A stretch of 64,000 nt of DNA from a virus, in IMG/VR virus record IMGVR_UViG_3300031578_000010, positions 1-64,000 of that record. One strand, given 5' to 3'. The position numbers were made by a program, and so were the translations under genes. Positions 2,384-59,560 of the stretch are shown piece after piece. How positions within the stretch are numbered: position 1 is the first letter of the stretch; the number at the start of each line of letters is the position of its first letter. The notes below the pieces were generated by a model. The model worked only from the letters and a program-made list of their open reading frames with translations. It had not been told where the DNA came from and made no database searches.

Positions 2384-3165
2384 AAAAAATCCGAAGGATC
2401 AACAGCGTAATCAAAACCCCTATTACACTCTGAACATTTAGCCCGAAGTTGCACCTTTGGTCCAGGCTGATTGGCGATGAAAGCCTCTGTTATTTCATCT
2501 ACCAAATCGACATCCTGGAACTCGTAGAAATCGGGTTCGATAGGCTGCCCGTCGAAGTCCTTTGTGCAATATCCTAATATTAAATTAGAGGATTCGTTAA
2601 TATTCCGAATCTGTTCCATCGTCAGGGCTTCTTCCGTGAACCCTCTCGAAAGGCGCAGACGAATTAAATGGCCGTGACTGTTTACTTCCAGAAAGAAGTC
2701 CTCCTCCGACTTTTTATATTCCGTATCTTCCAATTTAACGTTCCCTATTTCATCGGGAGAGGTTTCTATCTGAATTTCCCCTCCGCACCACGGACATTCC
2801 GTTCTCTGAATAATAGGTTTATCGCCTTTTGTTGCCTTCCTTATAGATAGGACAACTGCCGCTCTATCCGCTGAGAACATAGCTCTCGCCTGAAGTCTCT
2901 TTTCAGACGGGGCCATCTTTTCCATATGCGGATATTCAGCCATTTCCGCAAGAGCGGTTGTAATTAACCTTCCAGGATGGTTGAGGATAGCCGGTTTACC
3001 GAGGTTTTTTCTTACTGTTCCAGAAAGGCGCCCATGTCTTATGGTTTTATAGAACTGATTATCGTATCCAAAGGATCCGACAGGCAATTCTATTTCAACC
3101 TTGGAATCGCTTATATCCGGAACAGCGATATTGCCGGAACTCAAATCCGCTTCCTCTACGTCCAT
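2335..3165 (-). CDS. Tail assembly chaperone with zinc-binding Cys pairs (gpG-like position)
   Basis: This 276-aa protein lies between the tail tube gene and the tape measure. It has two CxxC pairs, CPWC near the middle and CSEC near the C-terminus, which suggests a split zinc ribbon. The C-terminal end is basic (RRRSSKRGGK). The ATG at 3165 is chosen because GAGGAG sits 6 bases upstream; an in-frame start at 3195 lacks such a site. It probably binds the tape measure before tube polymerisation, by analogy with gpG/gpGT pairs. The assignment rests on position and the frameshift signal more than on sequence recognition. A baseplate-hub assembly role like T4 gp26/gp51 is an alternative. Confidence 0.7.
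   Translation of the reverse strand: MDVEEADLSSGNIAVPDISDSKVEIELPVGSFGYDNQFYKTIRHGRLSGTVRKNLGKPAILNHPGRLITTALAEMAEYPHMEKMAPSEKRLQARAMFSADRAAVVLSIRKATKGDKPIIQRTECPWCGGEIQIETSPDEIGNVKLEDTEYKKSEEDFFLEVNSHGHLIRLRLSRGFTEEALTMEQIRNINESSNLILGYCTKDFDGQPIEPDFYEFQDVDLVDEITEAFIANQPGPKVQLRAKCSECNRGFDYAVDPSDFLLPSVGRRRSSKRGGK
2383..2389 (-). promoter_or_regulatory. Programmed -1 ribosomal frameshift site (T TTT TTA)
   Basis: In the zero frame of the tail chaperone the codons GAT TTT TTA contain the heptamer T TTT TTA in the canonical X XXY YYZ phase. The zero frame ends 46 bases further on, while the -1 frame continues to the tape-measure start. The same heptamer drives retroviral -1 frameshifting. GC-rich sequence just downstream (GGCCGGAGGC) could form a stimulatory structure, but this was not folded. 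Confidence 0.75.
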
Positions 3166-3216
3166 TTTATTCTCCTCTAACAACAGAACTTCCAAACTTG
3201 GTCGGTTAGTTTCCTG

Positions 3217-3732
3217 TTAGATGGGGCGCAAATCCATCGGATCGGGCAAGCCGCCCTCGTTCTGGATTGTCGCGCTTTCTGTCCAGACCTCGGAGGATCC
3301 TGCGTCGAGAGAGCCGTTCGTCAACTTACTGGGCCAGGTTTCGAAATAGGTCCAGCCCTTTAGCCGGCTCTGGAAATCGTCCATGGCCTGAATCTTCAGA
3401 ATTCTCCGGAACAGGGACGAGGGATACTGCCCTTTTTTCTGCACGAGTTCGACTTCTGCCCGCCATATCTGAAGATCGTTGGAACGGCTTTTCCCTCTGG
3501 ATATAACCAATTCTGCCGTCTTCGATGTGCCGGGAAGTTTCCTCGCGACCCGGTCCGTTCCCTCCCTGTATTCGATCACCTCGTTTTCGTCTTCGATTCC
3601 CTCGACTGACTTGAAACCTGCTCTCCAAGAGCGATTTCCTACAGCCAGGACCCGGAATCGAAACCCTACATAGGGGTCAATTCTCTGCCCAGCCTTTTGA
3701 CCTGTGCCCGGCAGCGTTGCAACATGGGGCAT
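3217..3732 (-). CDS. Tail tube protein (T4 gp19-like)
   Basis: This 171-aa protein has the features of the phage T4-like tail tube family: DPYVGFRF near the N-terminus, GFKSVEGIEDE, EYREG, and a KLPGT...ELVISRG segment in the middle. The family forms stacked hexamers as the inner tube of contractile tails. Length is typical (T4 gp19 is 163 aa). It follows the sheath gene at 34 bp and has a strong AAAGGAGGAATAAA ribosome site. Codons are markedly GC-richer than in the neighbouring connector genes, as expected for an abundant virion protein. Confidence 0.92.
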   Translation of the reverse strand: MPHVATLPGTGQKAGQRIDPYVGFRFRVLAVGNRSWRAGFKSVEGIEDENEVIEYREGTDRVARKLPGTSKTAELVISRGKSRSNDLQIWRAEVELVQKKGQYPSSLFRRILKIQAMDDFQSRLKGWTYFETWPSKLTNGSLDAGSSEVWTESATIQNEGGLPDPMDLRPI

Positions 3733-39840: not shown

Positions 39841-39877
39841 CAACGGGTTTCCAGACCTATTATCCAGAAACCCATTG
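39841..39877 (-). promoter_or_regulatory. Long-stem hairpin between the tmRNA and the next gene
   Basis: CAACGGGTTTC (39841-39851) pairs with GAAACCCATTG (39867-39877): an 11-bp stem with one G-U pair and a 15-base loop. No T-run follows on the minus strand, so it could be an RNA-processing or protective hairpin between the tmRNA unit and the downstream gene (ATG at 39822). Confidence 0.5.
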
Positions 39878-39896
39878 TTCCAACACGCACGATATC

Positions 39897-40049
39897 TTAT
39901 AAATAAGCGAGTTTCCGAGGCCCGCGAGACAGTTCATCGTACATTGATAGCGCCTGCCCCGCTTTCCTAAGGCAGTAGGCGAACGATTTGTAGGCGACCT
40001 TCTGCCCTGTCGCCTTTTGTCGTCCCTCAACAAAACCTCGGCTTCGCAT
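39897..40049 (-). CDS. Possible 50-aa protein downstream of the tmRNA
   Basis: ATG at 40049 to TAA at 39897 reads a basic peptide with plausible composition (GRQKATGQKVAYKSFAYCLR, KAGQALSMYDELSRGPRKLA). There is no good ribosome site; a TTG two codons upstream is an alternative start. It lies between the tmRNA and the hairpin at 39841. Confidence 0.35.
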   Translation of the reverse strand: MRSRGFVEGRQKATGQKVAYKSFAYCLRKAGQALSMYDELSRGPRKLAYL

Positions 40050-40179
40050 TTCCAATTTTTTTTACATAGGCGGTCACGAGTTTACGGCTTCCGCTATCGC
40101 CGCCAAGTTATCTCTTGGTCAGATTTAGGGCCAGGCCCGAGGGTTACTCGATTTTATTTCCACAGGCGCAGCAATTTAG

Positions 40180-40563
40180 TGGAGGCGGCGGGAATCGAAC
40201 CCGCGTCCCGTCCGAGCATTCCCGCTCCGTCTACAATCATGTTCCTTTGTTCTGTATTCGGCACAAAGGAAAAGGCCTCTCCGGAACTTTCTCCGGATAA
40301 GTCAGCACCTATTTCTCGCATAATATCCGGCGCGAATACTATGCCAGTCTGAATCGCGGCGTTACTTCACAGAACTCAGACAATTCCATGAGCAACGGAA
40401 TGATCGTCAAGCAACCATTCTGGCGGCCATCTCGCTCCTGAAATTCAGCGGCGAGGCGACCTTCTTATTCTTGTTGGCACTTAGTTTTTTTGTGCTCCGT
40501 ATCGTGGTAGCATACGGATTGCAGGAAACGCTTCAACCCGCCGGTCGAGCCCTTTACGCCCCC
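40180..40563 (-). ncRNA. ssrA: Phage-encoded transfer-messenger RNA (tmRNA)
   Basis: The minus strand starts GGGGGCGTAAAGGGCTCGAC at 40563, the tmRNA 5' tRNA-like half with the D-loop-type CTCGACCGG. It ends at 40180 with the T arm GCGGGTTCGATTCCCGC and acceptor strand CGCCTCC plus discriminator A. Acceptor pairing GGGGGCG/CGCCUCC is complete with one G-U pair; CCA is not encoded. Total length 384 nt is typical. Between the halves lies the reading frame at 40407-40478, preceded by AGT as in known tmRNAs, and later GC-rich pseudoknot-like repeats. tmRNA rescues stalled ribosomes and tags nascent proteins. It starts 11 bases after the upstream gene, suggesting release by RNase P. Confidence 0.95.
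40407..40478 (-). other. tmRNA tag-peptide reading frame (23 aa)
   Basis: From resume codon GCC at 40478 the frame reads ANKNKKVASPLN, then FRSEMAARMVA and TGA at 40407. The resume codon context AAGT-GCC agrees with known tmRNAs. The start ANK is typical, but the end RMVA differs from the usual LAA/VAA degron. The tag is long and basic. Confidence 0.85.
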
Positions 40564-40573
40564 AAATTATCAA

Positions 40574-40867
40574 CTACCAAATATCAGCATCTTTATGAAC
40601 TATTCTTGACCCCTTCTTGTTAAATATTTCACTTTGTTTTATTTCAAAAGTATCAGAATGTATAACCCCATCATCCAGCAAATAATCCAGGAAAAGTAAT
40701 TCTACAATCTGTTCTCTTTCCTGTATTGCCCTTAAATATCTTTCTTCTAAATGATTTCCCGCCGGATCCTTCCTAATCTCTTCTTCTAACTGGTATACCT
40801 CCGCAGTTAATTGCCTTACTCTTTTTGTTCGCCTTTTAATAATTGCTTCTGCTATTTCGTTCTTCAT
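40574..40867 (-). CDS. Small helical protein, unknown
   Basis: This 97-aa protein (ATG at 40867 with AAAAGGAGGAAAG) is largely coiled-coil-like (RRTKRVRQLTAEVYQLEEEI, YLRAIQEREQIVELLF). A longer reading from 40930 lacks a ribosome site. It ends 11 bases before the tmRNA, so its mRNA probably carries the tmRNA precursor. Confidence 0.65.
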   Translation of the reverse strand: MKNEIAEAIIKRRTKRVRQLTAEVYQLEEEIRKDPAGNHLEERYLRAIQEREQIVELLFLDYLLDDGVIHSDTFEIKQSEIFNKKGSRIVHKDADIW

Positions 40868-41246
40868 CTTTCCTCCTTTTATACTTCTTGACCCGTATTT
40901 TATCCATTTCCTTATATATTCTGCCTTCATATTCCTTTAACGATTCTCCCTTAAACAATGCCTCTCGTCTATCAGGCGATAACTCCCAAAATCTTTTAGA
41001 AGTAATAAAACCTTTATTATTTATTTCCTGTTTGGGTATATCTTTTATATTCTCCGCTAACTTGCCTCCCGCCTTCTTAAATATCAAAAACCTGCAACGA
41101 TTACAAGCCCGCCAATGAAAATGTATTCTATCTCCCACTAACTCCATATACCACACAATATCGTTCTTTTTGCCGTGCCCGCACAAGGAACAGCCCGATT
41201 CATTTTTTCCAAGGCGATATTTAATAAACCTTACTTTTGGTTTCAT
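40836..41246 (-). CDS. Zinc-finger protein, unknown
   Basis: This 136-aa protein has GCSLCGHGKK, HFHWRACNRCRF, giving a CxxC...CxxC zinc site, and a basic, charged C-terminal half (YKEMDKIRVKKYKRRKDEE). It overlaps the next gene's start by 32 bases. DNA or RNA binding is plausible. Confidence 0.65.
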   Translation of the reverse strand: MKPKVRFIKYRLGKNESGCSLCGHGKKNDIVWYMELVGDRIHFHWRACNRCRFLIFKKAGGKLAENIKDIPKQEINNKGFITSKRFWELSPDRREALFKGESLKEYEGRIYKEMDKIRVKKYKRRKDEERNSRSNY

Positions 41247-54057: not shown

Positions 54058-54735
54058 CTACCAATTAAGCTCGTCCTCGTCGTCGTCGTCATCGTCTTCA
54101 CTTTTCTTGCCCTTTTTCTTTTTTCCGCCTTTCTTCCCTTTTTTGTTTTTCTTGCTCTTTTTCTTGTTTCTTTTCTTGGATTTCTTTTCCTCCTCCTCTT
54201 CCTCGTCGTCTTCATCCTCGTCGTCGTCGTCATCGTCGTCCTCTTCCTCGTCGTCGTCATCGTCGTCGTCTTCATCTTCTTCTTCCTCGTCGTCATCCCC
54301 ATCTTCGTCATCGTCGTCATCGTCAGTTTCTTCCGGCTCCTCGCGATCCTTCTTTCCCTTTTTCAAAGAAAAGACCTCGTCGACTTTACACTTCGGTGTG
54401 CCATCGTCGTTCACGCTATCCGTATGAACGATTGAAATTCGGACCTTTTTCCCTTGCAGAATAGAAATGTCGAACTTCCCTGTTTTGAATTTCATCCCGC
54501 CAAGAAGCCGTTTGAGCCACCTGCCCGTTTTATTTTTTGGGCGGGCATCGAAAGGAGACCATGCTCGCATTTCTACTCCCTTGTGTTTCCCTTTCAGTAT
54601 TTTAAAAGACCATTTTAATTGAATACCGTACTTTCCATCCTCCTTTTCTATCTTGGTTATTTGGGCAAGATAGATATCCTCCGGAATTGAAAACCCGGCG
54701 CTTTTCGGTGACATAGGAATTCTGAGGCGCTTCAT
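54058..54735 (-). CDS. Probable ssDNA-binding protein with acidic and basic low-complexity tail
   Basis: This 225-aa protein has a globular N-terminal 125 residues with a DUF669-like pattern (EDIYLAQITKIEKEDGKYGIQLKWSFKIL, WLKRLLGGM, GKKVRISIVHT) that suggests an OB-type DNA-binding domain. Then comes a run of about 55 Asp/Glu residues, a Lys-rich block and a final acidic patch. Acidic C-terminal tails are typical of phage and bacterial SSBs. It sits between RecA and the clamp loader, consistent with replication and recombination. The opposite-strand Ser-rich and Thr/Met-rich frames here are shadows of the GAC/GAT repeats. Confidence 0.65.
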   Translation of the reverse strand: MKRLRIPMSPKSAGFSIPEDIYLAQITKIEKEDGKYGIQLKWSFKILKGKHKGVEMRAWSPFDARPKNKTGRWLKRLLGGMKFKTGKFDISILQGKKVRISIVHTDSVNDDGTPKCKVDEVFSLKKGKKDREEPEETDDDDDDEDGDDDEEEEDEDDDDDDDEEEDDDDDDDEDEDDEEEEEEKKSKKRNKKKSKKNKKGKKGGKKKKGKKSEDDDDDDEDELNW

Positions 54736-57236: not shown

Positions 57237-57783
57237 TTTGACCCCTTGTAGGAAAACTATAATAAAACCTCATAAAGGGGCTATATTTCGGATTAAAACA
57301 AGACAATAAAAAATGTACTATCCTTCTTTCAGTATAATATAATAACTGATCTATTCTATTTATTAAATTAATATTCTCTAAATCGTTTTCATCCAGGTTA
57401 CTTATAATCCACTTCAATAAAACCTCCAACGGAGGTTTCTCTCTTTCTAAGGAATTAAAAACCTGTTTTCTATTCTTATTTGAAAAGATCAAAGAGAGTG
57501 TATGGAAAATATTGCTTCCTTCTGTCTTTCCATAATAAAGAACTTTATTAACCAAATGTTTGACTTTTTGGATTCTATCTTCTTTCGCTGTTCTTAGATC
57601 AATATCACAGGAACTTCTTTTTATTATAGAATTTAATTTCCTTATATCTAATCTCCCAGCATCCAAATCTATTATTATCTTAGATTTAATTAACTGTTTT
57701 GCCAACATCTTATTTAGAGTAATTTTGTCTAAAGATATTGCATCTTTAAAGATCTCTTTATCGCAAACAAGCAACCTAATCAT
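57226..57783 (-). CDS. Probable clamp loader collar-only subunit (gp62/RFC-large C-terminal-like)
   Basis: This 185-aa protein lacks an ATPase domain. Residues about 85-165 follow the RFC collar pattern: SNIFHTLSLIFSNKNRKQVF, PPLEVLLKWIISNLDENDLE, INRIDQLLYYTERRIVHFLL. T4 clamp loader has gp44 plus the ATPase-less gp62 (187 aa), and this fits that layout with the RFC-small-like gene at 55016. Its ATG overlaps the preceding methyltransferase stop. Assignment is by pattern, not by strong similarity. Confidence 0.55.
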   Translation of the reverse strand: MIRLLVCDKEIFKDAISLDKITLNKMLAKQLIKSKIIIDLDAGRLDIRKLNSIIKRSSCDIDLRTAKEDRIQKVKHLVNKVLYYGKTEGSNIFHTLSLIFSNKNRKQVFNSLEREKPPLEVLLKWIISNLDENDLENINLINRIDQLLYYTERRIVHFLLSCFNPKYSPFMRFYYSFPTRGQNEK

Positions 57784-58646
57784 TATATTCTCTGAAATAT
57801 TTGAGCATATTCGTGGACTCGAACTAAATTATGATTTCCTTTTGTGAACATCCCGATTCGCTGTATAGCCGGCGTTCCCCTAAAAATAATAGGAATCTCT
57901 TCCAACATTTTAAAACCTGTTCGGTGCATTCTTGCAGTGTCATGATTCATTCCCTGTAAATATCCATCCAAATCTCTAACCAAACCAATAACCCAAACTG
58001 AAATAGCCCCTTTCTTTAATATTCTATAACTCTCGTTTATTGATTTCTGAATTCCTTTATTAAACTCATCGTATGTTCCTAACATTGATAAATCTTTCTT
58101 TCCTCCTCGATAGTGTTCCACATTCCAATAAGGCGGGCAAGTAATAAGAAAGTCTGCAATTTCATCCTCAACCATTGGAACAGATCTTGAATCGCCACAT
58201 ATTATCTTAACTTTTTTAGATACCTTATTTCTTTTCGCCCTCCGCAAAATTGCCTCACATTCGTTCTTTCTAATTTCAATTCCAATATAATCCATTCCAT
58301 GGCGGGCCGCCATAATTGCCCTTGTCCCTCCCCCAGCGAAAGGATCGTAACATATCCCCTTCTTGGGAGCGTATCTATTAAAAATCCAATACGCTGTCGC
58401 TGGATTAAAAACACTTTGAGAATTCCTATAACAAGATTTCTTAGATTGATTTTCTGGCTGAAGGCAAGCCGCTCTTTCGGATCCAAAATAGGCGGAATCC
58501 CCAATATGCCTTTTCTGCCTTCTAACCTCTGGATCAGATAAATATGACTCCCAAACTGTAAATGGCGGAGCCGGCAATCTGCCCACAGATGTTTTAAAAT
58601 CGCCAACTATCTGGCCAAATAGGTCTTTAACTTGTTTTCTTGACAT
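57783..58646 (-). CDS. DNA methyltransferase-like protein, paralogue 2
   Basis: This 287-aa protein has DPFAGGGTRAIMAARHG (motif I) and DFLITCPPYW (motif IV), as in the genes at 41651 and 58646. N-terminal DLFGQIVGDFKT and SVFNPATAYWIFNRYAPKKGI blocks are shared. It directly follows paralogue 3 in the operon. Sequence differences in the distal third could give each copy its own target. Confidence 0.85.
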   Translation of the reverse strand: MSRKQVKDLFGQIVGDFKTSVGRLPAPPFTVWESYLSDPEVRRQKRHIGDSAYFGSERAACLQPENQSKKSCYRNSQSVFNPATAYWIFNRYAPKKGICYDPFAGGGTRAIMAARHGMDYIGIEIRKNECEAILRRAKRNKVSKKVKIICGDSRSVPMVEDEIADFLITCPPYWNVEHYRGGKKDLSMLGTYDEFNKGIQKSINESYRILKKGAISVWVIGLVRDLDGYLQGMNHDTARMHRTGFKMLEEIPIIFRGTPAIQRIGMFTKGNHNLVRVHEYAQIFQRI

Positions 58647-59560
58647 TATTTCTTCTCCGGTTTTTTAAATATAAGAACATATTCATGAGAACGAATAAGA
58701 AACTTCCTGCCTTTATCAAAATTCCCCACTCGCCTTAAAGATCCGGTGTTCTTAATATGTAGAATAATTTCTTCTTTAATTAAAAATCCAGCTTTCCGAT
58801 GCATTGATGTCACATCATGGTTCAAACAAATAAGACTTCCATTTTTATGTCTATGTAATCCTACAACCCAGCAAGATATTGATCCAGGTTTCAAAATTCT
58901 AAAAGTTTCGCGAACAACTTTAAATAAATCTCCTTTGAATTCACTATATGATTCTTTCATAGATAAATCAGTAACTCCGCCCTCATATTTTTCAAGGTTC
59001 CAATAAGGAGGGCAAGTTATAAGAAAATCTGCTTTAGAATTTGTGACCTTCCGAGGATATCTTGCATCGCCATGAATTATTTTAACCCGATCAGAAAAAC
59101 CCGCATTATCCACTCTTTTTTCGACCGCTATACATTCTTCTTTTCTTATTTCATATCCTATATATTTTAATCCATGCCGAGCCGCCATTATAGCCCTTGT
59201 ACCTCCGCCAGCGAAGGGGTCAAAACATATCCCCTTTTTAGGAGCATATAAATTTAATAACCAATAAGCAATTGCTGGATTAAATACACTCGCGCCATAT
59301 TGATAACCAAATGTTCCATCAACCGTTTCATGCCGGGCTCGTTTCTCTGCCTCTTTAAAACTAAATTTATATCTACTGGTATTCGTGCCCTGCGATCTCG
59401 ACTTAGCATCTTTAACTGCCCCGATATCCCCCACCATCTTTTTAAATTTGCGGACCTGAGGATCACTCATATCGCAATCCCAAACGGTGATAGGCCAGAT
59501 ACCATATCTCTGGCGCATCGTTTTAAATTCGCCAACGGCTTCACCAAATAAATCTTTCAC
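58646..59560 (-). CDS. DNA methyltransferase-like protein, paralogue 3
   Basis: This 304-aa protein has the same motifs (DPFAGGGTRAI, DFLITCPPYWNLEKY) and the DLFGEAVGEFKT N-terminal block. The ATG overlaps the sliding-clamp stop (ATGA). Together with paralogue 2 it is in the replication operon. Confidence 0.85.
   Translation of the reverse strand: MKDLFGEAVGEFKTMRQRYGIWPITVWDCDMSDPQVRKFKKMVGDIGAVKDAKSRSQGTNTSRYKFSFKEAEKRARHETVDGTFGYQYGASVFNPAIAYWLLNLYAPKKGICFDPFAGGGTRAIMAARHGLKYIGYEIRKEECIAVEKRVDNAGFSDRVKIIHGDARYPRKVTNSKADFLITCPPYWNLEKYEGGVTDLSMKESYSEFKGDLFKVVRETFRILKPGSISCWVVGLHRHKNGSLICLNHDVTSMHRKAGFLIKEEIILHIKNTGSLRRVGNFDKGRKFLIRSHEYVLIFKKPEKK

Follow-up and report, generated by a model that had tools for sequence, protein, structure and literature searches.

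A phage-encoded one-piece tmRNA with a predicted hairpin inside its long tag reading frame, a layout shared with Patescibacteria

The window analysed here, positions 1 to 64,000 of the 90,431-base IMG/VR record IMGVR_UViG_3300031578_000010, encodes a one-piece tmRNA with a 23-residue tag. A predicted hairpin in the middle of the tag frame accounts for its length, roughly double the usual. On balance, the anatomy makes it probable that this RNA is a functional phage tmRNA of a "hairpin-tag" type, which would use the SmpB and alanyl-tRNA synthetase of its host and whose layout matches that of long Patescibacteria tags. Feature coordinates are collected in Table 1.

A single tmRNA (40179-40563, minus strand) and no tRNA were called by ARAGORN in the window, and neither was called in the remainder of the record. 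The Rfam model RF00023 scored 105 bits (E 5.5e-40; cut-off 47) at 40177-40563, covering model positions 1-374, and this was the only tmRNA match in the record. The minimum free energy fold lies 4.7 standard deviations below that of dinucleotide shuffles, none of which (0/100) folded equally low. The first-pass annotation had recognised a phage-encoded tmRNA and named the Infernal/Rfam model and ARAGORN as checks; both support it and set the strand as minus. A permuted-tmRNA candidate at 40097-40204 was rejected at 24.9 bits, below the cut-off of 47. As in bacterial one-piece tmRNAs of RF00023, the match runs end to end, the tRNA-like domain carries G3.U70, the alanine identity pair, in its acceptor stem, the resume codon is GCC and the stop lies in helix 5. 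Unlike them, the phage RNA has a 35-base tag insertion that folds as a hairpin and a 23-residue tag, and it ends in ACTA, so that CCA is not encoded.

Table 1 Features of the tmRNA locus (window coordinates).
Feature	Position	Strand	Evidence or remark
One-piece tmRNA gene (ssrA)	40177..40563	-	ARAGORN; RF00023, 105 bits; fold z -4.7
T arm of the tRNA-like domain	40188..40204	-	Rfam alignment
Helix 5; last tag codons paired, loop holds UGA stop	40398..40420	-	MFE fold; fold of the L002 relative; Rfam alignment
Tag frame including stop (ANKNKKVASPLNFRSEMAARMVA and stop)	40407..40478	-	ARAGORN, gene positions 86-157
37-nt hairpin inside tag frame, end of codon 6 to codon 18	40425..40461	-	Folds; Rfam insertion; resampling
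118-residue ORF, stop 10 bases upstream of tmRNA	40574..40930	-	ORF list
Downstream gene, 138 residues	39406..39822	-	54% identical to gene downstream of L002 tmRNA

The surrounding genes are those of a phage and include tail sheath, portal, head protease, DnaE-type polymerase, clamp loader, SbcCD and a UvsX-like recombinase; the terminase match in the record is weak, and no SmpB gene was found across the 90-kb record. The 118-residue ORF, which is probably co-transcribed with the tmRNA, gave no Pfam match and is unlike the ORF directly upstream of the tmRNA in the relative L002, described below; the 138-residue downstream gene likewise gave no Pfam match. Downstream of the tmRNA, the stretch 39864-40177 is gene-poor and without a match in an Rfam search; it may be a further structured RNA or a module that was exchanged recently. 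Elsewhere in the window, two neighbouring phrog_12517 genes (DNA methyltransferase-like, 57783-59560) are apparently a duplication, and a 225-residue protein beside the UvsX-like gene (54058-54735), with a very long acidic, lysine-rich C-terminal tail, is perhaps a DNA-binding protein of replication.

The tag, ANKNKKVASPLNFRSEMAARMVA, carries a net charge of +4 and ends in ARMVA, which agrees with the earlier description of a basic, 23-residue tag that lacks a Leu-Ala-Ala or Val-Ala-Ala ending. The reading frame was compared with that of L002, an 88 kb contig found by a terminase search (68% identical in the alignment), whose tmRNA (RF00023, 92.7 bits) sits in the same neighbourhood; a profile built from the two terminases found no relative beyond L002. 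Its tag, ANEKRQVARPASFGEAMTARMVA, is equal in length, shares the ARMVA end and has a net charge of +2. Of the 72 bases in the tag frame, 27 differ between the two phages, 12 of these at third codon positions, and five codon changes are silent; 12 of the 23 residues are identical, ARMVA included, an agreement to which the helix 5 pairing of the last codons may contribute. Frame 0 alone stays open to the shared UGA stop in both phages, whereas frames +1 and +2 run into stops at positions that differ between them, which rules out a resume codon elsewhere that would encode a standard tag. A 14 kb record from a pattern scan, L009, has a tag identical to that of the window. Its tmRNA and about 300 downstream bases are 98% identical to the window, against 73-91% for the terminase pieces, which suggests from the alignments that the tmRNA and the flanking ~300 bases were exchanged recently. 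Only two independent tags represent the window lineage.

The excess length of the tag appears in the RF00023 alignment as a 35-base insertion relative to the consensus, and a 37-nt hairpin spanning codons 6-18 is predicted at this place in the folds of both the window and L002. The hairpin fold stands out from synonymous-codon resampling in the window (p 0.0075) and in L002 (p 0.043). Without the hairpin about 11 codons (10.7 in the window) are left, which is a normal tag length; this in-frame hairpin, as the cause of the length, is what the first reading overlooked. The five lowest pairs hold in both phages, one of them via a one-sided change, and the upper pairs form in each with a shifted register, so that either structure laid on the sequence of the other phage retains 8 of 14 pairs. 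Clean covariation is therefore unsupported, and the claim is limited to a hairpin at the same place.

Bacterial tags were taken from the best 28-30 RF00023 loci in 39-41 genomes for each of six groups, with names inferred from centre-genome titles: Planctomycetota, Bacillota, Pseudomonadota, Bacteroidota, a deltaproteobacterial phylum and Patescibacteria. The five groups other than Patescibacteria yielded 120 unique tags, with group medians of 9-11 residues, in line with the earlier remark that the phage tag is longer than most; 114 end in AA, and the three calls of at least 20 residues look like ARAGORN miscalls. In the initial Patescibacteria set, 16 of 24 unique tags had at least 20 residues. 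This set was enlarged to 153 loci by a search of 379 genomes (327 matching); one-piece calls were obtained from 126 loci and 27 were dropped, which left 121 unique tags. Their commonest length is 22, positive charge is found in 67 of the 79 with at least 18 residues, and 31 end in AA and 90 otherwise. The Patescibacteria tags (L266, L394-L422, L635-L757) are mostly long and basic, with VAA, ALA, AFA or AVA ends rather than LAA. Long tags are also a feature of Chlamydiota and Mollicutes tmRNAs.

Two T-arm scans of viral sequences gave at least 161 ARAGORN calls and at least 144 unique tags; among the matches listed, 124 of 144 end in AA and 23, some of them doubtful, have at least 20 residues. 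Since IMG/VR contigs may carry host flanks, these counts may exaggerate how often true phage tmRNAs have short tags. Thirteen loci in phage isolates gave 11 ARAGORN calls and 10 unique tags, five of which reach 20 residues or more, one (L270) being doubtful. A further viral scan that selected for MVA returned AREEYDNLVQFEQAEELEMVA, ANMNVVDSILNGVINLFSSREELAMVA and AKKNRRNGFGSAQAGFAMVA, whose ending reflects the scan design and whose length is notable. Three unrelated long viral tags ending in MVA are found at L454, L485, L496 and L497, with strong folds for L454 and L485. In Tunturiibacter phage Tunturi_4 (L005), a gene annotated as an RF-1 domain peptide chain release factor and a permuted tmRNA call form a slightly overlapping pair (2618-2965 / 2936-3470), which may give this phage two routes of ribosome rescue.

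The hairpin layout was scored across these sets by three criteria: the hairpin opens between nt 14 and 21, ends 3-12 nt short of the final three codons and contains at least 9 pairs. Expected values come from dinucleotide shuffles; the definition was written after the first folds, so the test was not blind. Reversed tags were discarded as a fold control because reversal preserves the hairpin, and dinucleotide shuffles were substituted. Both tags of the window lineage show the layout (2/2, 0.35 expected), as do 55 of 61 Patescibacteria tags of 20-26 residues (9.5 expected), including all 26 of those with 22 residues (4.2 expected). The commonest hairpin length in Patescibacteria, 37 nt (16/55), equals that of the window, and 9.7 codons lie outside the hairpin in 27 of 55, compared with 10.7 in the window. 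With the helix held fixed, 183 of 260 cells were paired in the 26 Patescibacteria tags of 22 residues, against a mean of 155 and a maximum of 171 for column shuffles and 96-139 for slid helices. Among the viral matches listed, the layout was seen in 3 of 24 other one-piece tags of 20-28 residues (3.98 expected) and in none of 8 permuted tags (1.43 expected).

These counts bear on a simpler account, in which the RNA is a plain phage tmRNA, the hairpin is a chance fold or local oddity without a Patescibacteria link, and long phage tags arise often. Long tags do recur in viruses, as the 23 of 144 above indicate, and the body of the L002 tmRNA shows no kinship with Patescibacteria among the matches listed. 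We nevertheless regard this account as rather unlikely, because both diverged phages have a hairpin of equal length at the same place, one that stands out from synonymous resampling, and the layout is not a feature of the other long viral tags listed. The tags of Cellulophaga phage Calle_1, Salinibacter phage SRUTV-1 and Gordonia phage Boopy are likewise phage-encoded, with 22-28 residues and non-AA ends, but they are acidic (net -3 to -7) and without the hairpin layout. One survey counted phage-encoded tmRNA in 402 of the 18,146 phage genomes it covered, as given in the accessible text of PMC9004378. According to the same text, the tmRNA of Methylophage Melnitz is also phage-encoded and proposed to serve the phage; that RNA is two-piece and riboswitch-linked, in contrast to the one-piece tmRNA of the window.

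The first-pass annotation had further suggested that the non-canonical tag lets phage-rescued proteins escape, or be redirected from, host proteolysis. The tag is indeed long, basic and without LAA or VAA, and several other phage tags, such as AQIEANMEAVNAILNLEVAVGV and ANFDVDAMAEDVAADLPVEGVRA, are long with unusual ends. Hydrophobic non-AA ends are nonetheless normal in Patescibacteria (90/121), and a scan of genome contigs for MVA-ending tags (23 stretches, with an ARAGORN tmRNA in three) yielded two bacterial tags with this end, one from a Planctomycetaceae and one from a Lachnospiraceae genome. The hairpin also accounts for the length. Selection for evasion is unsupported and appears improbable.

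Still less probable is a decoy that binds SmpB and blocks host trans-translation rather than serving it. The phage record lacks SmpB, and there is a precedent in print, the accessible text of PMC4131195 suggesting a decoy role for a tRNA-like fragment of mycobacteriophage DS6A; but the window tmRNA is full-length, its tag frame is open and conserved with a stop in helix 5, and a decoy would have no use for a tag. A programmed bypass, by which the ribosome skips the hairpin and adds a tag of about 11 residues, would bring the tag near the usual length, but it can be given hardly any credence, as the hairpin has no matching take-off and landing codons and conservation extends to some of the residues inside it (V, A, P, F, M).

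The reading preferred here, a functional hairpin-tag tmRNA, leads to the question of the host, for which Patescibacteria are a lead only. Tag layout, length and positive charge point in this direction: the long tags of Patescibacteria are likewise basic, with a hairpin of ~37 nt at the same place. The size of the record is no obstacle, as one survey, in the accessible text of PMC12911398, gives a mean of 69.5 kb for Patescibacteria phages of complete or high-quality status. The Patescibacteria tmRNAs differ in having no FAP-type residues, no common C-terminal motif and an unlike body, and CCA is mostly encoded (15 of the 23 one-piece calls counted), whereas it is absent from the window tmRNA. 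In an nhmmer search with the L002 tmRNA, among the best 80 matches listed, the body showed no closer similarity to Patescibacteria than to other phyla; the top matches listed outside its own lineage were an IMG/VR contig, a Salinibacter phage and a deltaproteobacterial group, and the best Patescibacteria match reached 15.5 bits. The ARMVA end occurs in none of the 121 Patescibacteria tags, and a terminase search of Patescibacteria genomes, run without a positive control, gave 0 of 379. A DNA search with 19.9 kb matched 232 of 379 Patescibacteria genomes, but the matches listed fall mostly on the low-complexity tail at 54058-54735 and a RecA-like stretch and so give no host evidence.

From general tmRNA biology and the anatomy described above, the following steps of processing, charging, SmpB binding and rescue can be proposed. 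The tmRNA would be cut out of a longer transcript, host enzymes would supply CCA and alanine, with alanylation via G3.U70, and host SmpB would bind the RNA. During infection it would then enter ribosomes that had stalled on broken mRNA and free them. Translation would resume at GCC, the ribosome would melt the hairpin and append the 23-residue tag, and the stop in helix 5 would end it, presenting the hydrophobic MVA end to a host AAA+ protease. The hairpin may accommodate the longer tag between pseudoknot 1 and helix 5 with no widening of the RNA ring. Since long tags in Patescibacteria generally have this layout, a host of this kind is the probable setting in which the tmRNA was shaped or from which it was acquired.

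More tentatively, hairpin-tag tmRNAs may possibly form a class, standard in Patescibacteria, in which a ~37-nt translated module is set into a tag of normal length; this phage lineage may carry it because it infects such bacteria and adds its own degradation tag in the format of the host. A search of the openly accessible literature found no description of in-tag hairpins or of Patescibacteria tags. Tag length has so far been treated as a property of sequence; here it stems from a structural module through which the ribosome would translate. The finding raises two questions: are hairpin tags directed to proteases other than ClpXP, and could tag layout serve as a clue to the hosts of uncultured phages?
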